Source: Bryobacteraceae bacterium | GTDB taxonomy: Bacteria; Acidobacteriota; Terriglobia; Bryobacterales; Bryobacteraceae | NCBI GenBank assembly: GCA_030039005.1 | Contig: JASHQT010000494.1 | Location: 1-21,236 of the forward strand | DNA length: 21,236 nucleotides | Reading direction: 5' to 3' | Shown: positions 3,808 through 15,901 of the stretch, piece after piece | How positions within the stretch are numbered: the first letter of the stretch is position 1 | How the letters are laid out: every line of letters begins with the position of its first letter | The notes under the pieces: model-generated | What the model was told of the DNA's origin: nothing | The model's input: the letters and a program-made list of their open reading frames with translations, nothing else | Database searches by the model: none | Position numbers and translations under genes: made by a program

Positions 3808-4023
3808 TCAGCTCGTCGCCGCGTTCGCCATCACGCTCGACACCTTGCCGAAGATCTTACTGACGCTGCTCGATACGCCTGGCATGATCGACCCCGCCGC
3901 CACAGCCACAAACCCAACCATCAGCGCGTATTCGATCAAATCCTGTCCACGCTCGTCGCGCCAAATCGTGAAGCGGCAAATTACGTTCCAATACCGAAGC
4001 CCTAACTGATGAAGGATTTTCAT
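3808..4023 (-). CDS. Flp/Fap-type IVb pilin
   Basis: A 71-residue prepilin. After a 26-residue basic leader comes the prepilin peptidase site, RDERG followed by QDLIEYALM. Cleavage after Gly26 would place Glu at position 5 and Tyr at position 6 of the mature pilin, the hallmark of Flp pilins. The mature protein has a hydrophobic helix (ALMVGFVAVAAGSIM) and a short Ser/Val-rich tail. It would assemble into tight-adherence (Tad) pili. None of the tad secretion genes are in the window, so this is an isolated pilin gene. The leader is longer than usual for Flp. The start at 4023 lies just behind a 4-codon mini-ORF with a good ribosome binding site (4020-4034). Confidence 0.85.
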   Translation of the reverse strand: MKILHQLGLRYWNVICRFTIWRDERGQDLIEYALMVGFVAVAAGSIMPGVSSSVSKIFGKVSSVMANAATS

Positions 4024-4098: not shown

Positions 4099-4216
4099 AG
4101 GACCACTCCGTCATTCGTTCCCTTAGCCCTAGTCTGTCGGCCCGTGGTCGTTTAACCGATTCACTGCCCGTTCACCACTATTCCCTCTCGATTTCCCCCG
4201 TTGCCAGAATCACTTC

Positions 4217-4251
4217 CCCAACCCCCGGCCCCCAATCCCCGGCCCCCGGCC
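4217..4251 (+). repeat. heptanucleotide tandem array 1 (CCCRRYC x5)
   Basis: Five consecutive 7-bp units without interruption: CCCAACC, CCCGGCC, CCCAATC, CCCGGCC, CCCGGCC. All fit CCCRRYC. The array ends 20 bp before the ATG at 4272, which has no Shine-Dalgarno sequence, so the array occupies the leader of that gene. Confidence 0.85.
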
Positions 4252-4271
4252 TTACCCTCAAGCCAAATCCC

Positions 4272-5708
4272 ATGCCCAAGCGCCTCACGCAATCCGAACA
4301 GGCGCTCGCCCTCCTCTACCATGCCCGTGCCGCCACGCCCTTCTTCGCCCAGAACGGCGAACCTTGCGCCTCCGTCCCCGGAAGCATCGACTCGGTCCGC
4401 GTCCTCCCCCTCCGCTCCGCCGATTTCCGCGACTGGATCACCGCCAATTACTACTCCGAATACGAAACCGCGCCCTCCGCTCTCGCCCTCCGCTCCGTCC
4501 TCCGCACGCTCGAAGCCCGCGCCCAATACTCGGGCTCGCCCGCCCACAAAGTCGATCACCGTATCGGCTTCGAAGGCGACCCCTTCGCACCCTCCAAAGT
4601 CTTCCTCGATCTCGCCAATCCTTCCGGCGAAATCCTCGAAATCACCTCCCAAGGCTGGTCAATCACCGACAATCTCGGCCGCTCCTTCCGCCAATCCCCG
4701 GGCATGCTTCCTTTGCCAGCCCCCCAATCCCCGATCCCCAACCCCGGCCTGCTCTTCGAACTCTTCCACCTTTCTCCAACCGCTCAAACACGCCTACTGT
4801 TCTGGCTCATCGCCTCGCTTCGTGCGACGGGCCCATACCCCATCCTCGTCCTCCGCGGTCCAGCCTCCAGTGGCAAATCCACGCTTGCCCGCGCTCTGCG
4901 CACCCTGATCGACCCCTCCGCCGCGCCCCTGCGCCGCCTCCCTCACAGCGATCGCGAGCTCCTCCACCTCGCCCTTCACAATTGGATTCTGGCCTTCGAT
5001 CACGTTCATCGCATCCCGCTCCAAATTTGCGAAGCCCTCTGCGCTGTCGCCTCGGGCGAAGCCATCGAAACCGCGCAGCCCGATTATCGTGATCCCGCGC
5101 TTGCCGAAATCGCCCGCCCCATGATCTTGATCGCGCCGCTCGATGAAGCCCAATGCCCCTGGACTCCCACGCGCGCCCTCTCCTCCCGAACGCTCGTCGT
5201 CGACCTCTCGCCTCTAACCAATCCGCGCGCCGAAGCTGCCGTTTGCTCCGAGTTCGAATCGCTCCGCGCCCCCATGCTCTCCACACTCGCCGATGCCGTC
5301 TCCTGCGCGTTGCGCAACATCCGCGATGTCGATCCTCCGCACGTCTCCCGATTTTCCGATTCCGTCGCTTGGGCCTCCGCGGCCGCGCCTGCCTTGGGCC
5401 TCACTCCCGCCGCTATCGTCGACGCCGTATCCGATCCCGAATCCGCGTGGCTCGGTGTCGACCCCCTCCGCGACACCCTCTATGCCCTCCTTGCCTCCGA
5501 ACCCACCCCCCACCCTTCGTGGTCCGGCGATTCCGCGGCTCTGCTCTCCCGTCTCCGCGCCATCGCCCCACTCGCCACCCTCCCCAGCACTCCCAAGTCT
5601 CTCCTCCAATCCCTCTCCCGCATCCCCGGCATCTCGGTTTCCCGTCACGGCCGGTCTCTCACGATCTCCAAGGTCAACCACCAAAGCACCGCGTCTCCCA
5701 ATCCCTAG
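4272..5708 (+). CDS. orphan D5-like phage/ICE helicase-type ATPase
   Basis: A 478-residue protein like the C-terminal ATPase part of phage and integrative-element replication proteins. An N-terminal domain (residues 1-150), with features such as LPLRSADFRDWI and VFLDLANPSGEILEIT, precedes a P-loop domain. Walker A is GPASSGKS at 196-203 (strand LVLRG before it), the Walker B position is WILAFD with Asp243, and a later segment, RPMILIAPLDE, matches the sensor region of this family. Members usually remodel or unwind DNA at replication start. No primase, integrase or other replication gene is next to it. The linker at residues 150-159 (APQSPIPNPG) is encoded by a heptamer array, and the stop codon lies in another. 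The initiation region lacks a ribosome binding site. Overall function is inferred. Confidence 0.6.
   Translation: MPKRLTQSEQALALLYHARAATPFFAQNGEPCASVPGSIDSVRVLPLRSADFRDWITANYYSEYETAPSALALRSVLRTLEARAQYSGSPAHKVDHRIGFEGDPFAPSKVFLDLANPSGEILEITSQGWSITDNLGRSFRQSPGMLPLPAPQSPIPNPGLLFELFHLSPTAQTRLLFWLIASLRATGPYPILVLRGPASSGKSTLARALRTLIDPSAAPLRRLPHSDRELLHLALHNWILAFDHVHRIPLQICEALCAVASGEAIETAQPDYRDPALAEIARPMILIAPLDEAQCPWTPTRALSSRTLVVDLSPLTNPRAEAAVCSEFESLRAPMLSTLADAVSCALRNIRDVDPPHVSRFSDSVAWASAAAPALGLTPAAIVDAVSDPESAWLGVDPLRDTLYALLASEPTPHPSWSGDSAALLSRLRAIAPLATLPSTPKSLLQSLSRIPGISVSRHGRSLTISKVNHQSTASPNP
4723..4750 (+). repeat. heptamer array 2, inside the ATPase gene
   Basis: CCCAATC, CCCGATC and CCCAACC follow each other exactly, then a degenerate unit CCGGCCT. 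It is the same CCCRRYC type as the arrays outside the gene, and encodes part of the linker between the two domains (residues 151-160). A change in copy number by one unit would shift the frame. Confidence 0.75.
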
Positions 5709-5754
5709 TCCCCGATCCCAGGCTCCCCCAATCCCTGATCCCAGTCCCGGCCCC
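5697..5754 (+). repeat. heptamer array 3, at the ATPase stop and DUF1592 leader
   Basis: Units from 5697 are CCCAATC, CCTAGTC, CCCGATC, CCAGGCT, then after 2 extra bases CCCAATC, CCTGATC, CCAGTCC, CGGCCCC. It is a degenerate form of the CCCRRYC repeat. The second unit supplies the TAG stop of the ATPase gene (5706-5708), and the array ends 15 bp before the GTG at 5770. Confidence 0.7.
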
Positions 5755-5769
5755 GGCTACACTGAAAAG

Positions 5770-7488
5770 GTGCGCCTCTCCGCACTCCTCCTGCTCTGCA
5801 CCGCCCTCCAAGCCCAGACCACTGCTCGCCGCCTGAATCGTTACGAATACAGCGCCACCATCCGCGACCTCCTCGCCGTTCCGTTCAACCCCGCCGCCGA
5901 TTTTCCCACCGACGATTCCGGCTACGGCTTCGATAACATCGCCAGCGTCCTCTCCACATCACCCAGCCTCATGGAACATTACCTCGCCGCCGCGGAAAAA
6001 GTCGCCAGGGCTGCCATAGTCCCTCCCACCCCTCCCGCGCCCTCTGTCCAGCGCTTCACGGCCACCGATTTTCATTTCAAAGTCGATTTCGAGGGCGATT
6101 ACGACGTCCTGATCGTCACCCAGATCGCCAAGAGTGACCCTTCCGATCCCGTCACCTTCTCCATCGATGGCGTCCCAATTGAAACTGGCGGCAACGAATT
6201 TCGCATCCACTTCGGCCGCGGCAATCCGCGCCTCTGGGCCGATTCGCCGTATCTTCGCTACGTCGAGCTCCGCGGCCCCTACAATCCCCTCCCGCCGCCG
6301 CTTCCCGAAAGCTATTTCCGCGTTTTCCGCTGCGGTCACTCGCCCGGCCATCACACGCTCGCCTGCGCCCGCGCGAATCTCGCCGACTTCGCCCGTCGCG
6401 CCTATCGTAGGCCCATCACCGACGACGAACTCGACGGCCTGATGCACTTCGTCGAACAGGCTCCCAGCATCGATCGCGGCATGCAACTCGCCCTTGAGGC
6501 CATCCTCGTCTCGCCGAAATTCCTCTTCCGCATCGAACCCGAATCCGGCCTCGACGATTTCCAGTTCGCCTCGCGCCTCTCTTATTTGCTGTGGAGCAGC
6601 ATGCCTGACGACGAGCTGTTCTCACTCGCCGCCCAACACCGCCTGCGTGATCCGGAAGTCCTCCGCGCCCAGATCCACCGCATGTTGCTCGACTCCAAAT
6701 CGCGCGCCCTTGCCGAAAACTTCGCCGGCCAGTGGCTCGAAACGCGCAATCTCGCGAGCATCCATCCCGATCCGGTCAAGTTCCCTGAGTTCACCCCCGC
6801 GCTGCGCCGCGACATGCAGCGCGAAACCGAGCTATTCTTCGACTCCATTTTTCGCGGCGATCGTCCGATTTCCGATTTCCTCGCCGCCAACTACACATTC
6901 TTGAACCAGCGCCTCGCCGCGTTCTACGGCATCCCCAACGTCCAAGGCCCGCAGTTCCGCCGCGTCGATCTTCCGCCCGGTTCCCATCGCGGCGGTATCC
7001 TCACCCAAGCCGCCATCCTCACCGTCACTTCTTATCCCGCCCGCACCTCACCCGTTCTGCGCGGCAAATGGATTCTCGAAAACTTGCTCGATTCCCCGCC
7101 GCCTCCTCCGCCGCCCAACGTCCCCAAGCTCGAGGAAACATCCTTGGGCGTAACCGCCACCGTGCGCCAGCGCCTCGAACGGCATCGTGCCAATCCCGCT
7201 TGCAGCGGCTGCCACACGCGCATGGACCCGCTCGGTTTCGGCCTCGAAAACTACGACGCCATCGGCCGCTGGCGCACCCAGGACGGCAATCTGCCCATCG
7301 ATTCGGGCGACGGCCCCGAAGCCCTGAAGCAGCATCTCCTCGCCGAGCAGGACCGCTTCGCCCGCTGTTTCGCCTCCAAGCTCGCCACCTACGCGCTCGG
7401 CCACAAGGCGACCTTTCCCTCTGCCAAAGGGAACGAAACCTTCTTCCAGCTCGTCGAAGAAATCATGACCGGGGATGCGCGTGACTAA
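5770..7488 (+). CDS. DUF1592/DUF1588/DUF1585 exported protein
   Basis: A 572-residue exported protein of the multi-domain type common in Planctomycetes, Acidobacteria and myxobacteria. The GTG at 5770 is chosen because a signal peptide follows (RLSALLLLCTALQAQ). After it come a DUF1587-like start (RRLNRYEYSATIRDLL), a DUF1595-like segment near 206-260 (FARRAYRRP), DUF1592 near 261-400 (FASRLSYLLW), DUF1588 near 405-500 and DUF1585 near 510-570. A haem-type CSGCH motif lies at C478-H482 within DUF1588. The separate N-terminal cytochrome c domain found in many relatives is absent, so the protein is shorter than usual. Biochemical activity is unknown; the pairing with DUF1552 is conserved. GC-rich, with many C-ending codons. 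The start has AAAAG directly before it rather than a spaced ribosome binding site. Confidence 0.8.
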   Translation: MRLSALLLLCTALQAQTTARRLNRYEYSATIRDLLAVPFNPAADFPTDDSGYGFDNIASVLSTSPSLMEHYLAAAEKVARAAIVPPTPPAPSVQRFTATDFHFKVDFEGDYDVLIVTQIAKSDPSDPVTFSIDGVPIETGGNEFRIHFGRGNPRLWADSPYLRYVELRGPYNPLPPPLPESYFRVFRCGHSPGHHTLACARANLADFARRAYRRPITDDELDGLMHFVEQAPSIDRGMQLALEAILVSPKFLFRIEPESGLDDFQFASRLSYLLWSSMPDDELFSLAAQHRLRDPEVLRAQIHRMLLDSKSRALAENFAGQWLETRNLASIHPDPVKFPEFTPALRRDMQRETELFFDSIFRGDRPISDFLAANYTFLNQRLAAFYGIPNVQGPQFRRVDLPPGSHRGGILTQAAILTVTSYPARTSPVLRGKWILENLLDSPPPPPPPNVPKLEETSLGVTATVRQRLERHRANPACSGCHTRMDPLGFGLENYDAIGRWRTQDGNLPIDSGDGPEALKQHLLAEQDRFARCFASKLATYALGHKATFPSAKGNETFFQLVEEIMTGDARD

Positions 7489-8767: not shown

Positions 8768-9258
8768 TCCGGCTGACCATGTTCCTGTTTGCGTCCTCTC
8801 TCTTGGCGTTCCCTCAAGCCCCCGCGTCGCCTGCTCAATCCATCGCCGCCGGCTTTCAGGATGTCAATCGCCGCCTGCTCGACATGGCCAAGGATTTTCC
8901 CGAAGCCAAGTACGGCTACCGCGCCACCAAGGACGTTCGCTCCTTTCGCGAAGTCATCATTCACGTCGCTTCCGGCAACGCATATGCCGCTAAAGCAGGC
9001 CGCGGCGAGAAGGTGAAGTGGGACGAGATCGATCCCACGGGTTACACTACGAAAGCGGCAGCCGTCGCGCTGCTCGAAAAAACCATTGCGGACGCCACCG
9101 CCACCTTAAAGGCCACGCCGCCGGATCGCTGGTCCAAAACCGTCGAGCCGTGGCTCGATGTGATTGAACACGCCGGAGAACATTATGGCCAGCTTGTGGT
9201 TTATTATCGTAACAACGGGATGGTGCCTCCCGAGACCCGTCACAACGCCAACAGGTGA
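8764..9258 (+). CDS. secreted DinB-family protein
   Basis: A 164-residue DinB-superfamily protein starting at ATG 8764 inside the stop codon of the DUF1552 gene (ATGA overlap), so it is probably translationally coupled. Residues 1-24 look like a signal peptide (FLFASSLLAFPQAPASPAQ), which is unusual for DinB proteins but seen in this kind of bacterium. The four-helix-bundle metal-binding histidines appear as His67 (EVIIHVAS), His136 and His140 (EHAGEHYGQ), so the site looks complete. DinB proteins are metal-dependent thiol-transferase-like enzymes of mostly unknown substrate. Its end overlaps the end of the converging addA-like gene by 19 bp. Confidence 0.8.
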   Translation: MIRLTMFLFASSLLAFPQAPASPAQSIAAGFQDVNRRLLDMAKDFPEAKYGYRATKDVRSFREVIIHVASGNAYAAKAGRGEKVKWDEIDPTGYTTKAAAVALLEKTIADATATLKATPPDRWSKTVEPWLDVIEHAGEHYGQLVVYYRNNGMVPPETRHNANR

Positions 9259-12200
9259 GCCTCCACCGGCGCATTATTGAGGCGCGCCAGGGCAAAACAA
9301 TACCAGGACAATTGATTTTCGTAGCGCTTTCGCGCTCCTGCGATTTCCGCGTCGGTTTTGAAATCGATGACGTGCCACGTTCCGTTTTCCTCGAACGCCA
9401 GGTCGATCACGCCTTCGAGCATACGACGGCCTTGCATACGAGTGGTTGCGAGCTTCAAAAGAATCGGCAGCTCTCTGCGGCACAGTTTCGACTTTCGCGC
9501 TCGCTCCAGCAGCGGATGTTTCATCGCTGCCGCCGCGGCTTCGGCGGCGTGTTCGATTTCCTGCTCGGTCGCGCCCAATACTCGTCCGTGAACCTTTGCC
9601 AATGGCACGAGATCGGCGCCATCCAGCGCGGCATCGCGCAGGATCGTATGGACCAAAGTTCCGAATCGCGCGCCGCCGGGCCTTCCCGGCGCTTTCGGCA
9701 CTGTTTCAAAATGCACCGCGATCGAAAATCCTTCGGGCGCGCTGGCTGCTTCAGTCGCCGTGAAGACATCGAATTCCTGCTCGTGTCCCGCCGCGTTCGC
9801 CCGTTCGCGCCGTGCTTGCCATTCATGATAAGCGGTCAGGCTGGGCGACTCGTCTTCATTGAGATCGCCCGTCAGAATTTCTTCCTGCCGCAGCCCCAGG
9901 TTGGCCGGCGGCGTCAGTTTCAGAGTTTTCGGATCCCACCAAACCACTTCATGTGTTCCTTGCTGCGGCGTGTGCAGCCCCGGCTGCACGGAGGGTTCCT
10001 CGCGCTCCATGATCGGGCGATTGAATACCGAAGCATCGCCGAATTCTGGACAGCCCTCGCCTCGCGTTGCGTGGCGGTACCGGTCGTGCGCCGGATAGAT
10101 GGCTTTGTTCAGCGGCGCAAGCCATCCGTCGACCGGTTCATCGCCCACGCTCGGAATCACCAGCAGATCGCGCGCGCGAGTCGCCGCTACGTAGGCCACG
10201 CGAACGCCTTCAGCGCGCTCCCGTTCGCGCTCCTGCGCGTCGTTCTCGTGCAGTTCCCAAGGCGCGCAGCGCAGCAGTCGCTGGGCGCACAGACCCTCGC
10301 GCGCATCGACGTAGCGGTCCGGGTCGCCGGCCGCGATATGCGCGGTCATGTCCGCCAGAATCACTACGGGAAATTCCAGACCTTTGGCCGCGTGCACCGT
10401 CATCAGCCGCACGCCTTCGGCGCCTTCTTCAAGCACCGGCGCTTCGGCGGATTCGGCCTTTTCCGACTGTGCTTCCAGTTCTTCCACGAAACCGCGAAAC
10501 GAAACGCCGCCCGAGAGCTCGAACGTCCGCGCGAGGTCGGCCACACGATAGACGTTGGCAAGAACCTGGTGTCCGGCGGGGCGCAAGGCGAATCCGGCGT
10601 GCGCGCGAGTGGCTTCGAGCAGCGAATTTACGGTATCGGCAATCGGCCTGCGATTCCGCCCGCGATGCAGATCGGCCAGCAGGTCGAGAGCTTCGCGAAT
10701 CGGTTGAAAGTCCTCGCTCAGATCTTCAGGCAGCGCGCGAAACGGATGCAGCCGGCCGATTTCGTGATGGAAACGCAGCAGCAGATTGTCTGGAATCGCG
10801 AACAGGGAGCCCTTCAGCGTGGCGAACACCGAAAGCTCGTCGTCGGGCCATTCGATGGCCGTCAGCGCCGCGCGCATGGTTTCCACTTCTTCGCGGCTAT
10901 GAAACGATTTCGAGCCTACCAGAAGGTGCGGGATCTCGCGTGCTTCCAGGTTCCGGACATAATCACGCGTAATGTCCTTTCCATAATTGGTGAAACGGCG
11001 AAACAGCACGCAAATGTGGCGCGAGGAAATAGGAGCAAGTTCAGACCCTCTTTCCGGATCGCGCACTTGCCAGCCGCTTTCGCGGACCAGCCATTCGACA
11101 AACGCGACAATTGTGTCGGGCAGACAGGCGTCGATGGCGGCGCGCGAGATGCGCATGCTGCCGTAGGGCCGGGGCGCGGGCAGCGCGACGATGCTGGGTT
11201 GTCCGGCAAGAGCCGGTGTGTCGCCGTGCAGCGGGGCGTAAGCCGCCTGGCCGGCCGATGCATCGTCCTGCATCTCTGTTTGAAACGCGGAATTCACCAA
11301 ATGTTGGATCGGCCGGACGGCCCGGAAACTCGTGGTAAGCTGCACCACGCCCACGCCACAGGTGGCGAGCGTATCGCGGATATCCCGATACAGAACCACA
11401 TCGGCACGGCGAAACTTATAGATCGATTGCTTGGGATCTCCCACCACGAAAAGTTTGCCCGGCTTGGGCGCCGCTTTCCGCCAGTCCGATTTGCCGGCAT
11501 CGTCCGCGGCGAGCAACAGCAGGATCTCGGCTTGCAGCGGATCGGTATCCTGAAATTCGTCGATGAAAATGTGCGTGAAACGGTCCTGCAAATAGCGGCG
11601 AACATCGGGCTGGTTGCGCACCAAATCGCGCGCGAGCAGCAGCAGATCCAAGAAATCCAGCTTGCCCGCGCGGCGCTTGAGGCGGTCGTATTCTTCCACC
11701 AGCTCCCACATCTCCGCGCGCAGCGTGGCCGCGAGATCGGCCCCGGCGGCGTGCTGGAATGTCTCGAGTTGCTCGATCAGATGAGCGCGCGCCTGCACCA
11801 CCTGCTCGCGCGGAACGCCGTCGGCGAAAAAGCCCGAACCTTTTTGCGGGTTCTGGTTGATGTCGCGGATCAGCTTGATCAGGAGGCTTTCAAGGGCATC
11901 ATAATCGCGGGGGCCGGCCGCTTCCGCGCGGTCGATCCATGTCAGCAGGGCGCGCGCCGGTTGGAGCGATTTCACCAGATTGTCGTTGCGCCTCGCGCAG
12001 CGCGACGCGGCTTCGCCGATCACGCGCACCTGCTCTACCAGCCGATCGATTTCCGCCTCGCGGCGAAATTCCTTGATGCGCCACGGCGCGGGATGATCGC
12101 GCCATTCGATCAGCTTCCAGGCTGCGTATTGCAGTTGCTCGATAGGCGACGGGGCATCGGCGGATTCGCGCGAAGCCAGGCGCACCAGCGCGCGCCGGAG

Positions 12201-12683
12201 TCCGGGAGCGCCTTCGCTGAGCTTGTGTTCGAGCCACGCGCGGAAGGCGCGCTCATAGATCCGTGAAGCCTGCCGATCGTTCAATTCCTCGAACGCGGGG
12301 TCGACCACGGCTTCCACCGGGCGCTCGCGTAGAATCTGAGCGCAGAAGGAATGAATGGTTCCGATGGAGGCTTCTTCCAGGTGCTCGAGTGCGTGTTCGA
12401 TGTGCGAACGCCAGGCTGGATCCTTCGCGGCTTCGCGCGCGCGGTCCAATTCCTGGCGCAGGCGCAGCTTCAGTTCGCCGGCGGCCTTGTTGGTGAAGGT
12501 GACGGCCACGATGCGATCGATGGTCGTGAGGCCGCTGGCCAAAACGGCGACGATGCGGGCGATCAGTTCGGTAGTCTTGCCGGTTCCGGCCGAGGCTTCG
12601 ACCAGCAGGCTTTCACAGAGCGATGTGCGGATGCGCTCGCGCGCGGCGCGGTCGTCGAGTCGGGGCTGAATCACCGGGGTCAT
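9240..12683 (-). CDS. addA: AddA-like UvrD helicase-nuclease
   Basis: A 1147-residue helicase-nuclease subunit. The ATG at 12683 overlaps the upstream gene's stop (ATGA), and conserved sequence begins soon after it; in-frame sequence further upstream lies inside addB. SF1 helicase motifs are in order: Walker A ASAGTGKT (30-37), DEFQDTD near 375, VVGDPKQSIYKFR, TTSFR, MTVHAAKGLEFPVV and VAATRARDLL. A C-terminal PD-(D/E)XK nuclease follows with FGTLVHTIL, GVIDLAFEENG (Asp1094), VIDFKTD (Asp1107, Lys1109) and the QLSWY motif. This matches AddA/RexA: it would unwind and cut double-strand ends to prepare them for RecA and to destroy foreign linear DNA. All catalytic residues appear intact. It could also be called a RecB-like protein. 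Confidence 0.88.
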   Translation of the reverse strand: MTPVIQPRLDDRAARERIRTSLCESLLVEASAGTGKTTELIARIVAVLASGLTTIDRIVAVTFTNKAAGELKLRLRQELDRAREAAKDPAWRSHIEHALEHLEEASIGTIHSFCAQILRERPVEAVVDPAFEELNDRQASRIYERAFRAWLEHKLSEGAPGLRRALVRLASRESADAPSPIEQLQYAAWKLIEWRDHPAPWRIKEFRREAEIDRLVEQVRVIGEAASRCARRNDNLVKSLQPARALLTWIDRAEAAGPRDYDALESLLIKLIRDINQNPQKGSGFFADGVPREQVVQARAHLIEQLETFQHAAGADLAATLRAEMWELVEEYDRLKRRAGKLDFLDLLLLARDLVRNQPDVRRYLQDRFTHIFIDEFQDTDPLQAEILLLLAADDAGKSDWRKAAPKPGKLFVVGDPKQSIYKFRRADVVLYRDIRDTLATCGVGVVQLTTSFRAVRPIQHLVNSAFQTEMQDDASAGQAAYAPLHGDTPALAGQPSIVALPAPRPYGSMRISRAAIDACLPDTIVAFVEWLVRESGWQVRDPERGSELAPISSRHICVLFRRFTNYGKDITRDYVRNLEAREIPHLLVGSKSFHSREEVETMRAALTAIEWPDDELSVFATLKGSLFAIPDNLLLRFHHEIGRLHPFRALPEDLSEDFQPIREALDLLADLHRGRNRRPIADTVNSLLEATRAHAGFALRPAGHQVLANVYRVADLARTFELSGGVSFRGFVEELEAQSEKAESAEAPVLEEGAEGVRLMTVHAAKGLEFPVVILADMTAHIAAGDPDRYVDAREGLCAQRLLRCAPWELHENDAQERERERAEGVRVAYVAATRARDLLVIPSVGDEPVDGWLAPLNKAIYPAHDRYRHATRGEGCPEFGDASVFNRPIMEREEPSVQPGLHTPQQGTHEVVWWDPKTLKLTPPANLGLRQEEILTGDLNEDESPSLTAYHEWQARRERANAAGHEQEFDVFTATEAASAPEGFSIAVHFETVPKAPGRPGGARFGTLVHTILRDAALDGADLVPLAKVHGRVLGATEQEIEHAAEAAAAAMKHPLLERARKSKLCRRELPILLKLATTRMQGRRMLEGVIDLAFEENGTWHVIDFKTDAEIAGARKRYENQLSWYCFALARLNNAPVEAHLLAL

Positions 12684-15600
12684 GGCAGTTGCCGGATTTG
12701 GATGAGCGCATCCAGGCGATCGGGCAGTTTGCGTTTCACGCGGATCTCTTCGTAGGGCCCGCACACGGCGGTGTAATCGCATTGAGCACAGGCGCCGGTT
12801 TTGGGCGCGGCGGGCAGAAAGCCGTCTTCGAGCGCATGGTCGATGGTGTCGAGCACGCGGCGCAGGCGGAGGCGCGACTCGTCCTGGAGCGGAATATCGA
12901 TGGAGAAAAAACCGCCGCGCTGGGTGCAATAAAACAGCCGGCCGCATTCGACAGATTCGCCCAACAATGTTTCAGCGGCCTGCGCGTACAGCAAGGGCTG
13001 GAGGTGCACACCACCGCCGACGTAGTGCGGGTGCTCGGCAGGCGGCTTGCCGGTCTTGTGGTCGGTGACGCGGAGCGCTCCAGTTTTTACATGGCGTTCC
13101 ACGAGATCGATAGAGCCGCGCAATCGAACGCCGTCGAAAATAACAGCCTCCTGCTTGGTGCTGTGCGGATCGCGGTCTGGACCGGCGGGCAAGCCGAAAG
13201 CGAATTCCGAGTACAGGGGAAGCCACTCGGAGTGGTTGGCAACGGCATGCTGCAGCCAGCCCCGGAGATCAGTTCGTACGCTTTCGATTTCACTTTTCCA
13301 AACGCGAGGGATAGCGGGCGCGAGATCCTCTTCGAAGCGCGCCGCCACGCGATCCAGCACTCGGTCGACGAGGTCAAGCAGATTCGAAGAGTGCGCACGA
13401 GCGAGTTCCCGAAAGAGCTCGAATTGCGCCGAATGAAAGAGTGCGCCGCGGGTCAGTGGATCCATTTGCTCCAAATGCGCCGACTCCTCGCGTGGGCGGA
13501 ACTGAAAAATGGCGTGCAGGACGAAGCGATAGGGGCAGGCCGAGAAATGTTGCAGCGAGGACGGCGAGTAACTGCGGCGGGCTAGACGCTGGGAAGCGAG
13601 AGCCTGGAGCGTGGCGGCATCCGCGTCGACGATTCCGTCGGCCGCGGTCCAGCGATTGCGCCAGCGCCGTCCGCGCGCGCGGAGAGAGCGGGCAAGCGCT
13701 GTGTTGGTTTGCATTAGGTAACGGGCGCTGCCGGTGGCCGCGGCACCGCGAAGCTTGAGCGAGGCGTGCAGAGACGCCAGATCGTATTCCGCGTTATCGA
13801 TGCCGGCGCGAGGATCGGCGGGTGCGGGCCAATCCAGGCGCGATGGCGCCGCGCGGGCAGCGCGTTTTTCGAATTCGCGCAACGACGGCAGGCGGCCTTC
13901 GGCGGCGCGGATCACTTCGAGCGCATAAAAAGACGGCACGCGCGCGCGAGACTGCGCGATGTCCATGCGCGGATAGGAGACGATCAGGCTTTGTGAGGCG
14001 GCCGCGGCGGCAGAGCGCAGCAACAAGCGTTCGGCGGCCACGCGCTGTTCCTGCGTGGCGAGACCCGCCGGAAGTTTGCGGCGGTATTCATCGAGCAGCA
14101 GAGGGTCTTCGAGGGAGCGGCGGGGAAAAAGGCCTTCGGCGAGGCCGGGCAGAAAGACGACCTCGAAGGTGCGCCCGCGCGCTTCTTCGATGGAACCGAC
14201 AAAGACGCGGCCGTAGCGGCGTTTGGAAGGCTCCACGCGAAGGAAAGTCAGGCGATCGGAGAGAACTTCGTAGAGTTCGTCGAGCGAGACGGGGCCGACG
14301 TCGCGCATGGGTTCGAGTTCGCTCAAAACAGCGAGGACGGATTCGGGACGGCGGAGAGCCGTTTGCGCCAAACCGGCGAGGCGGTCGAGCCATTCGCCCC
14401 AGGCCGCCGAAGACGGAAGAGCGCCCAGCAGTTCGATCAGAGGAAGCGCGAAATGTTCCAAACGTTTTAGCTGGGTTATGCGGCGTTCGACATGGGTGCG
14501 CAGCGAATCGTCTTCCGACTCCAGGTCGCGCAGCTGCGCGTGCAGTTCGGCATCCAGGCCGCGCAGGCGCCGGGCCCAACGCTCGCGGCCGCCGATGACG
14601 GCGGCGTCTACCAGGAGCTTTTCCCATCCAACGGGGACATCGAGCGGCGGGGCGTCTTCTGGGGCAAATTGCGCGGCTTCGACTCCGGGCGGCGGCGTTT
14701 CAAAATTCGTAAGAATGTCGTCGTCCGCGGGAATCCATTGCGGTGCGTGGGCGAGCGGAGCGCCAGCGGAATCGAGAGGCGGCGTCTGGCCGAGCGACAG
14801 ATATTCGGCAAAGCGCGAGGCGGAGCAATGATCGGCGGCGCAGGCCAATAGCGCAAGAAAAGCGCGGCCGGCCGGAGCGGGACGCGCGGCGCCCCGGCTG
14901 AAATAGTGACGAATGCCCGCGCGGCGCAGCGCTTCTTCGACGAGCGGCTGATAAAGGTCGACGTTGCGGAGCAAGATAGCGACGCGATCGAACCGTGTGC
15001 CCTGCTCGGCGAGCGCGCGGATCCGGCGCGCGATTTCCACGCACTCGAAACTTTCACCGGGGGCGGAGAAAAGCAGCGACGGATCGGGCGGCGCGATGGG
15101 CGGCGGTTCGGACGAGAACAGCCATGCGCGCACGCGATCGAGCGTGGCCACGAGCGGAGTGCGATCGAGATCCACGGCGCGCGTCGAGAGAATGCGTTCG
15201 AGCGATGGAATGGCTTCATCGCCGGTGATCGCAGTGGCGAAAACGTGGGGCGACGAATTGATGAGGTTGGCGAGCAGCCGCTCATGACTGGACGACTCGA
15301 TGGGCACGCCGAGCAGAAGCACGGGCAGGCCCGCATAGCGATGAGCGGCGCGAGAGGCTTCTTCGGCGGCCAGGCGCAGCAGCAGCGGGAAGTCCGCCAT
15401 GGAGCGCTCGTCGAGCTCCGCTTCGTAAAGATCCATCAGGTGCGCCAGATCGCGGCCCGGTGCGCCGACGGCGGCGAGAGATGGCGCGTCCACGGATTCC
15501 AGGCGAAGTTCGGTGATCGTTCTGGCGAGCGCGCGCGCGAAGCCCGGCGTTTGCGCGACGGGAGCGAAGTACGGCAAACGCTGCCCGGATGCGGCGGAAT

Positions 15601-15901
15601 AAACAATGCGCGCGGCGAGCGCTTCGATGCCCAGGCGAGAAATGGGCGCGAGCGCGAGCCTACCCATCGATTGCGTGGCAAGCAGCGCGGCCAGCTGCGT
15701 GACCGTGAGCGCGTGAACGCCTGCGCAGCCTTGCGGAAAAGCGTGCGACGCGATTTCGTTCGCGGCAGCGCGGGTGGGTGCAAGAATCAGAATTTCTTCG
15801 TGTGGGGATTTAGCGGCGAGGAATTCGGCAGCGCGGGAAAGCAGCGTGGCGTTGGAGCGGGAGTGAACCAGAGAGCATTGAGCTGGGGAGCACGGGGCCA
15901 C
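12680..15901 (-). CDS. addB: AddB-like PD-(D/E)XK nuclease subunit
   Basis: A 1073-residue partner of the gene downstream, ending 4 nt inside it. The C-terminus has a nuclease core: GSIDLV, then TDHKTG (Asp947, Lys949) and QPLLYAQ. Four cysteines, C789 (in SACPYRF) and C1038, C1041, C1047 (CAQCDYTAVC), are placed like the iron-sulfur cluster ligands of Bacillus AddB. The N-terminal half looks like an inactive helicase. Where AddB has a P-loop, this protein reads VHSRSNATLL, without GxxxxGKT, so ATP binding is probably lost. The GTG at 15901 is the most upstream in-frame start that fits a TATAAT box ending at 15907. Exact start is uncertain. Together with AddA it would act in recombinational repair. 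Confidence 0.85.
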   Translation of the reverse strand: MAPCSPAQCSLVHSRSNATLLSRAAEFLAAKSPHEEILILAPTRAAANEIASHAFPQGCAGVHALTVTQLAALLATQSMGRLALAPISRLGIEALAARIVYSAASGQRLPYFAPVAQTPGFARALARTITELRLESVDAPSLAAVGAPGRDLAHLMDLYEAELDERSMADFPLLLRLAAEEASRAAHRYAGLPVLLLGVPIESSSHERLLANLINSSPHVFATAITGDEAIPSLERILSTRAVDLDRTPLVATLDRVRAWLFSSEPPPIAPPDPSLLFSAPGESFECVEIARRIRALAEQGTRFDRVAILLRNVDLYQPLVEEALRRAGIRHYFSRGAARPAPAGRAFLALLACAADHCSASRFAEYLSLGQTPPLDSAGAPLAHAPQWIPADDDILTNFETPPPGVEAAQFAPEDAPPLDVPVGWEKLLVDAAVIGGRERWARRLRGLDAELHAQLRDLESEDDSLRTHVERRITQLKRLEHFALPLIELLGALPSSAAWGEWLDRLAGLAQTALRRPESVLAVLSELEPMRDVGPVSLDELYEVLSDRLTFLRVEPSKRRYGRVFVGSIEEARGRTFEVVFLPGLAEGLFPRRSLEDPLLLDEYRRKLPAGLATQEQRVAAERLLLRSAAAAASQSLIVSYPRMDIAQSRARVPSFYALEVIRAAEGRLPSLREFEKRAARAAPSRLDWPAPADPRAGIDNAEYDLASLHASLKLRGAAATGSARYLMQTNTALARSLRARGRRWRNRWTAADGIVDADAATLQALASQRLARRSYSPSSLQHFSACPYRFVLHAIFQFRPREESAHLEQMDPLTRGALFHSAQFELFRELARAHSSNLLDLVDRVLDRVAARFEEDLAPAIPRVWKSEIESVRTDLRGWLQHAVANHSEWLPLYSEFAFGLPAGPDRDPHSTKQEAVIFDGVRLRGSIDLVERHVKTGALRVTDHKTGKPPAEHPHYVGGGVHLQPLLYAQAAETLLGESVECGRLFYCTQRGGFFSIDIPLQDESRLRLRRVLDTIDHALEDGFLPAAPKTGACAQCDYTAVCGPYEEIRVKRKLPDRLDALIQIRQLP

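Follow-up and report, generated by a model that had tools for sequence, protein, structure and literature searches.

The 21,236-nt stretch analysed here (the window; GCA_030039005.1, contig JASHQT010000494.1) carries three arrays of a C-rich heptamer before, inside and at the end of a single ATPase-like gene. We consider it likely that these arrays are the product of slippage-driven turnover in a dispersed repeat family, which belongs to a lineage that appears to be the Bryobacterales and is tolerated in leaders, at gene ends and in linkers. The window arrays are above chance, and in related genomes the arrays are dispersed, biased in position, held to a strand rule within open reading frames (ORFs), and switch unit type while keeping their period. 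We read frame switching by these repeats as a side effect and not as a dedicated phase switch.

The ATPase-like gene (4272..5708, + strand) encodes 478 residues with a P-loop, GPASSGKS, and an AAA_16 match at residues 172-242 whose score of 24.6 bits lies below the curated cut-off of 32.6. Array 1 (4216..4251, +) occupies the 5′ leader with its C-rich strand as sense and comprises five units, CCCC followed by AAC, GGC, AAT, GGC and GGC; read as CCCRRYC, it is perfect five times over at 4217-4251, and the ATG at 4272 follows 20 nt after the array. Array 2 (4722..4748, +) has three perfect CCCRRYC units (4723-4743) and an imperfect fourth that reaches approximately 4748, giving four C4 tracts. 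It encodes PQSPIPN ahead of the ATPase core, in what appears from the sequence to be a linker between domains. Array 3 (5697..5754, +) codes for the final residues (...SPNP), contains the TAG stop at 5706-5708, and fills most of the gap before the next gene, a DUF1587/1595/1592/1588/1585-type (PSD/PSCyt) gene (5770..7488, +) whose GTG start lies 15 nt after the array. Its CCC tracts start at 5697, 5703, 5710, 5717, 5726, 5733, 5740, 5746 and 5751/5752, so that the steps are uneven (6, 7, 7, 9, 7, 7, 6 and 5-6 nt), and it is absent from the Tandem Repeats Finder output at score 30; it looks like a decayed array. The preliminary description had assigned the three arrays to the front, interior and end of one ATPase gene, with the second as linker and the third as stop and next leader, and these placements stand. 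The strict 7-bp period that it gave all three holds for the perfect units of arrays 1 and 2 and fails for array 3, with steps of 5-9 nt. Elsewhere in the 21 kb, neither strand has a further run of two CCCRRYC or three CCARYNN units. A different 7-bp tandem, TCCGATT (2.4 copies, 6864-6880), was reported by Tandem Repeats Finder inside the downstream gene. The window also contains a small ORF divergent from the ATPase gene (3808-4023, -), which had no match in the Pfam scan and has an RGQDLIEYALM motif that we take to resemble a Flp-type pilin, as well as adjoining genes for an AddA-like UvrD helicase/nuclease and an AddB-like PD-(D/E)XK protein (9240-15901, -).

These arrays are commoner than in shuffled sequence, which the preliminary description had left as a point to be checked. 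Dinucleotide shuffling of the whole window (n = 300) produced no array of at least three units, against two observed, and 2,000 such shuffles of 4200-5760 never reached two arrays of at least three units and reached two arrays of at least two units once. Codon shuffles of the ATPase gene gave a 3-unit array in 1 of 20,000 cases. When the protein was held fixed and synonymous codons were redrawn, array 2 was recovered in 984 of 20,000 draws, indicating that it partly follows from the peptide itself; peptide and DNA repeat are inseparable in full from the window gene alone. Chance codon use, in a gene that is rich in Pro and in C, would fit this resampling, as it would two orthologous linkers that lack heptamers. 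Array 1, however, is non-coding, the shuffles yield no comparable array, and the linkers of homologues fit two different heptamer codes at one place. Chance codon use is accordingly an extremely improbable explanation.

The homologues show that the ATPase linker is a recurrent array site. We found 324 homologues at E ≤1e-3; the 120 of them listed are mostly full length, and the few named by organism are Bryobacteraceae or Acidobacteriia. A linker was taken to fit when at least eight consecutive residues are encodable by a CCCCRRY or a CCARYHR array in any phase. Among the 120 listed of 324 (window protein counted), 16 fit CCCCRRY and 26 fit CCARYHR, the latter a code inferred from peptides whose DNA was observed at other genes and never in an ATPase linker. 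The total of 42 compares with a mean of 0.08 and a maximum of 1 in 200 residue shuffles, and all 42 peptides fall within a single 20-residue linker window, with none in the other 23 windows. When the 45 typed homologues are placed on a quick tree that leaves out linker and tail, back-translation indicates that the two linker codes have replaced each other at least 12 times. Orthologue DNA from five relatives (L082-L086) provides a direct view of this site. The linker of L082 (genome G200) has CCCCAAA, CCCCAAC and CCCCAAT units, and those of L085 (G201) and L086 (G199) have CCCCAGT and CCCCAGC units. L083 (G202) and L084 (G203) have the linker without heptamers, and both genomes are almost free of the repeat family. 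Such homologues had been named beforehand as a sign of chance codon use; they do occur, but chance codon use is not thereby shown. The arrays are thus optional for the ATPase protein, yet they do not look like chance codon use. Two assembly features were observed here: in L085 (1479-1545) an N gap of unknown length lies inside the linker array with a TAG behind it, and in L086 (1-50) the assembly ends at the linker array, where two G199 contigs end.

The tail of the ATPase at the stop carries array-type peptides too (SPIPNP, PTANSQ). Crude rules typed 43 of the 120 rows at both ends, giving 24 CC, 6 CN, 4 NC and 9 NN for linker and tail (Fisher p = 0.004), and slightly different rules typed 38 rows (21, 5, 4 and 8). 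After correction for the tree, the agreement is non-significant (5 independent pairs, 3.2 the same way and 0.1 the other way, median p = 0.25). Because the raw p of 0.004 is lost on the tree and stricter typing keeps 9 rows, we did not retain this agreement as evidence that linker and tail change in concert.

An initial search of genomes with the window ATPase as query found no relative. A scan with the DUF1552 protein, from which 80 loci were kept, served both as a route to relatives and as a control set from many phyla; searched by script, these 80 loci showed no copy of the ATPase and no 3-unit CCCRRYC array. Genome counts are of overlapping match positions, not arrays, with the pattern read backward as control. 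Within the order of G001, three CCCCRRY units followed by CCCC are present in 14 of 257 genomes and five CCARY cores at 7-bp spacing in 12 of 257. The former pattern outnumbers its control in G199 (8 vs 1), G200 (1 vs 0), G201 (11 vs 1) and G175 (15 vs 0). Matches to four CCARYNN units, with the control in brackets, number 75 (20) in G199, 31 (0) in G201, 19 (0) in G175 and 15 (3) in G200, with one each in G202 and G203 and none in G204, G001, G003 and G027. In several genomes the backward control exceeds the CCCCRRY pattern (110 vs 40 in G118, 134 vs 54 in G163), and in the five-core CCARY search control and pattern gave 32 vs 15 in G163 and 26 vs 26 in G133; these high control counts arise at least partly because units ending in C fit both directions. 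Through the relatives, the window arrays look like members of a dispersed repeat family, and the window genome would be expected to behave alike. Dispersal, together with placement outside coding sequence and near starts, supports the earlier suggestion of a repeat family, although not an unrecognised one, as heptamer families are already in print.

The arrays of the relatives are strongly biased in position. We analysed 80 stretches around arrays of G175, G200, G201 and G199, which hold 84 arrays, and classified 82 after leaving out two at contig edges. Genes were called with a small codon-usage model that was trained on the window and recovers its main genes. Intergenic arrays make up 46 of 82, compared to 13.4% of random positions in those stretches, and 8 of 82 lie at a stop (3.0% of random positions). 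The 28 of 82 inside ORFs compare with 81.8% of random positions, and the start choice of this gene finder can push leader arrays into ORFs. In all 28 ORF arrays the C-rich strand is coding. In thirteen of these 28 the distance to the called start exceeds 150 nt, and some ORF arrays are probably leaders with the start called too far upstream. Among pairs of an array and a start within 100 bp, 24 of 31 are same-sense and 7 opposite (p = 0.003, two arrays counted twice). Where an array lies at a stop or no more than 50 bp from it, the G-rich strand is coding in 12 pairs and the opposite holds in 14 (a few arrays counted twice). Clustering at gene starts and stops, which the preliminary description had suggested testing, is seen in the relatives for position and for the sense of start pairs, and no strand preference accompanies it at stops.

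Within proteins, some of the arrays lie between domains. A Pfam scan of 17 array-bearing proteins of the relatives placed the array between two matches in six: between the helicase C-terminal domain and the tudor domain of UvrD, the phosphoesterase and ligase of LigD, the first two domains of TilS, the HHH and OB domains of a DnaE-like protein, the DEAD-associated domain and third winged helix of Lhr, and a RAMP match (below its cut-off) and Csm4_C in a Csm4-like protein. In another seven the array lies ahead of the first match, including one orthologous POR-like pair and one RNase H-like pair. The array follows the last match in DnaX and lies inside the domain of a GH20 protein, and two of the 17 have no Pfam match. 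The array-bearing genes serve many functions, with housekeeping genes among them.

Comparison of close genomes reveals that the arrays change in place. An alignment was obtained for ten locus pairs of G199 and G201, nine of which were inspected. At one site in a POR-like gene (L198/L242), CCAGCCC CCAGCCC CCAGTCC in one genome stands against three CCAGCCA units in the other. The two lengths differ by 3 nt, which keeps the frame; this switch from CCAGCCC to CCAGCCA separates orthologues that are 93% identical. At L202/L223 a 35-nt gap corresponds to five units. The arrays of L211/L227 are identical and those of L209/L226 nearly so, indicating that some arrays are static. In L233 and L248, one unit type passes into another of equal period. 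At L201/L238 and L206/L234 the unit types differ and the alignment stops at the array; in the latter pair, most of the G201 upstream flank has its counterpart at the end of another contig region of G199, whereas for the G199 flank the only match in G201 is 95 nt long at 76%. We make no claim that arrays are rearrangement breakpoints at these two pairs, as misassembly may be the cause. The L206/L234 pair carries an RNase H-like (PF13482) gene (L234 1355-2716, -; L206 2415-3662, +) that is approximately 93% identical after the array and different before it, and ahead of its array in G199 is a stretch matching ATPase residues 8-153 (40%). Gene fusion at the array and misassembly there would each account for this locus.

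These changes of unit bear on two sequence-specific explanations. The earlier proposal of a target for a sequence-specific DNA-binding protein is not supported, as the unit sequence changes at fixed sites where period and place persist. Alternatively, the arrays could be G-quadruplex or i-motif elements, in which folding of the G-rich template strand, while it is being transcribed or replicated, would tune expression of the ATPase and the next gene. The window arrays have the sequence potential for this, with G4Hunter scores of 2.33, 2.22 and 1.51 for arrays 1, 2 and 3 and at least four tracts of three or more G in each. In addition, such oligonucleotides fold in vitro according to the available text on the Nostoc and Xanthomonas repeats, which also lie before starts with the G-rich strand non-coding (PMC4692102), and 24 of the 31 start pairs in the relatives agree with that placement. 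Against this, the relatives use units with GG tracts only (CCAGCAA and CCAACAA; G4Hunter 0.62 and 0.73), the linker code has changed repeatedly among the typed homologues and the L198/L242 switch is seen in DNA, the functions of the array-bearing genes are diverse, and a regulatory role could not be identified by the authors in the part of PMC4692102 available. Unit type changes at fixed sites while the 7-bp step is kept, and therefore G-quadruplex formation is not the conserved property. Taken by themselves, the window arrays agree with the G-quadruplex reading; the GG-only units of the relatives do not, and we consider it unlikely.

The 7-bp step itself appears to extend beyond the family. 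Once the selected arrays were masked, a period of 7 or 14 was found for 27 of the 75 tandem arrays in 374 kb, compared with 20 of the 192 in the 1309 kb of the 80 control loci; this excess was measured beside selected arrays, and the controls come from many phyla with unmatched composition. The period-7/14 arrays include units unrelated to CCARYNN (AACGAGA, CTGCTTT, CCTGCCG). Perfect arrays of an unrelated unit (AACGAGA, CTGCTTT) were observed in these same genomes at L233 2518-2546, L201 919-950 and L239 3311-3368. It is tempting to speculate, though only tentatively, that a writing activity or replication property with a fixed 7-bp step acts on any unit sequence, seeds the linkers of UvrD, LigD, TilS, the DnaE-like protein and the window ATPase, and tends to give nearby arrays of one gene the same unit type. 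If true, new flexible linkers are being written into core proteins by a non-triplet repeat.

A repeat of 7 nt, which is no multiple of three, could also act as a phase-variable switch, the ATPase being turned on or off whenever array 2 gains or loses a unit, as had been suggested for this gene. Searching with the N-terminal 165 residues identified 32 short homologues, of which 16 are too short behind the linker to test. The frame is lost within the linker array in P0127, P0131, P0141 and P0144 (4 of the 32, or 4 of the 16 long enough). P0131 and P0144 lie on contigs of 19 and 15 kb, and P0127, which lies on a 900-base contig, shows no difference from the full-length P0078 across 150 residues. 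A further protein, P0125 (134-kb contig), ends in array-like residues in a sequence too short to test the frame. The assembly gap with a TAG behind it in G201 and the two G199 contigs that end at the linker array are also compatible with a switch. Nevertheless, among the 16 testable homologues the frame is shifted elsewhere in six (P0124, P0128, P0129, P0134, P0146 and P0152) and kept in six. Off-frame alleles exist in the data, and part of the shifts may reflect errors or decay. Most of the listed homologues are full length, housekeeping genes carry arrays, L198/L242 differ by an in-frame 3 nt, and to our knowledge the window ATPase gene has no surface or antigen role. Phase variation thus survives as a side effect of the arrays, while a dedicated switch is quite unlikely.

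Insertion by a mobile or templated repeat element, instead of slippage in place, would bring arrays to many sites. Identical unit types at dozens of G199 and G201 sites, block-wise type changes at fixed sites, and the tendency of linker and tail types of one gene to agree are consistent with this idea. However, inspection of the 84 arrays by eye found no common flank or hairpin beside them, and several unit sequences have only the period in common; the conserved ends and hairpin of REP/MITE-type elements are likewise absent from the 84 arrays, whose flanks fold weaker than random 45-mers. A composite mobile element was also considered and rejected, as the palindrome found after some arrays (L198, L211) is not general. 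We regard a mobile origin as very improbable.

Repeat turnover by slippage remains the preferred explanation, and we propose the following scheme, in which slippage or local conversion would be the engine and selection for flexible in-frame linkers the filter. The CCCCRRY subtype of the window appears to overlap a wider CCARYNN family. Arrays would arise, expand, contract and switch unit type through slippage at replication or through local gene conversion, with 7 bp as the preferred step, and they would persist where harm is least, in short leaders, stop-codon regions and flexible linkers, where those of the relatives are enriched. In a linker, three units, 21 nt in all, make seven codons. 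Since 7 = 1 mod 3, a pure array yields one and the same heptapeptide in each of its frames (PQSPIPN for CCCCAAT). The peptide of the C-rich strand, rich in Pro, Gln, Ser, Thr and Asn, would suit a flexible linker, and that of the G-rich strand would be rich in Gly, Trp and Leu. Selection may therefore keep the sense orientation and an in-frame total length, with off-frame alleles as a product of the same turnover process.

The reason for a 7-bp step in long bacterial repeats was left as a hypothesis in the available text of two earlier studies (PMC4692102, PMC4679880), both of which raise the idea that a 7-nt period reflects DNA polymerase contact. Here, in one lineage, the period persists at fixed sites of close genomes even though the unit is exchanged, which makes the period separable from sequence and from G-quadruplexes and the 7-bp question testable. 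In addition, the recurrence of a non-multiple-of-three repeat as a protein linker in housekeeping genes offers a handle on the origin of interdomain linkers and the frequency of frame breaks.

The window arrays are similar to G/C-rich heptanucleotide arrays that have already been described, among them GGGGA(C/T)T of Nostoc, and short tandemly repeated sequences of heterocystous cyanobacteria are named STRR. Among the literature matches listed, which leave most subscription journals outside coverage, none describes heptamer repeats in Acidobacteria or Bryobacterales. The accessible part of a Solibacter paper reports many short repeats and names no heptamer, the text of a short tandem repeat survey mentions no heptamer, heptanucleotide or Acidobacteria, and a survey of DNA structure features, in the part available, names Acidobacteria once, apparently in a figure legend.

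The closest likeness is to the GGGNATC and GGGGA(C/T)T heptameric repeats of Xanthomonas and Nostoc (Rehm et al. 2015, PMC4692102), a paper whose available portions also mention heptanucleotides of Calothrix. The reverse complement of the window unit, GGGGRYY, includes GGGGATT itself, and 3 of the 8 perfect units of arrays 1 and 2 fit the published patterns when reverse-complemented (GGGGATT twice, GGGGATC once), the others being GGGGGCC and GGGGGTT. As far as the accessible text goes, those repeats share with the arrays of the relatives dispersal, intergenic enrichment, a position near starts with the G-rich strand non-coding, and a variable unit number (PMC4692102); window array 1 agrees with this strand placement. 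In contrast, the relatives have unit types with GG tracts only, as well as ORF arrays with the C-rich strand coding, some of them between domains. The preference for a coding G-rich strand behind stops given in the same text (PMC4692102) is absent in the relatives, and window array 3 has the opposite orientation. A preference for four units is a further trait of the published repeats; the CCARYNN pattern applied to the relatives required at least that number.

Other repeats share single properties with the family, as far as the parts of the sources available describe them. Geobacter metallireducens has 49 copies of a heptanucleotide repeat with a different unit (consensus GGACCGG), proposed there as regulatory RNA elements (PMC2700814). 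The TAACTGA repeats of marine Beggiatoaceae and cyanobacteria also form heptamer arrays before start codons, and their residues within ORFs lie mostly outside assigned domains, but they consist of a single unit (PMC4679880). The tandem repeats of Borg elements evolve fast and create disordered protein segments, as we propose for the linkers here, but their unit lengths within ORFs are always divisible by three (PMC9879509), which the 7-nt unit is not. Finally, the constant-size, variable-sequence tandem repeats of Bacillus likewise keep their period while the sequence varies, at periods of 20-21 or 52 nt instead of 7 (PMC8161180).
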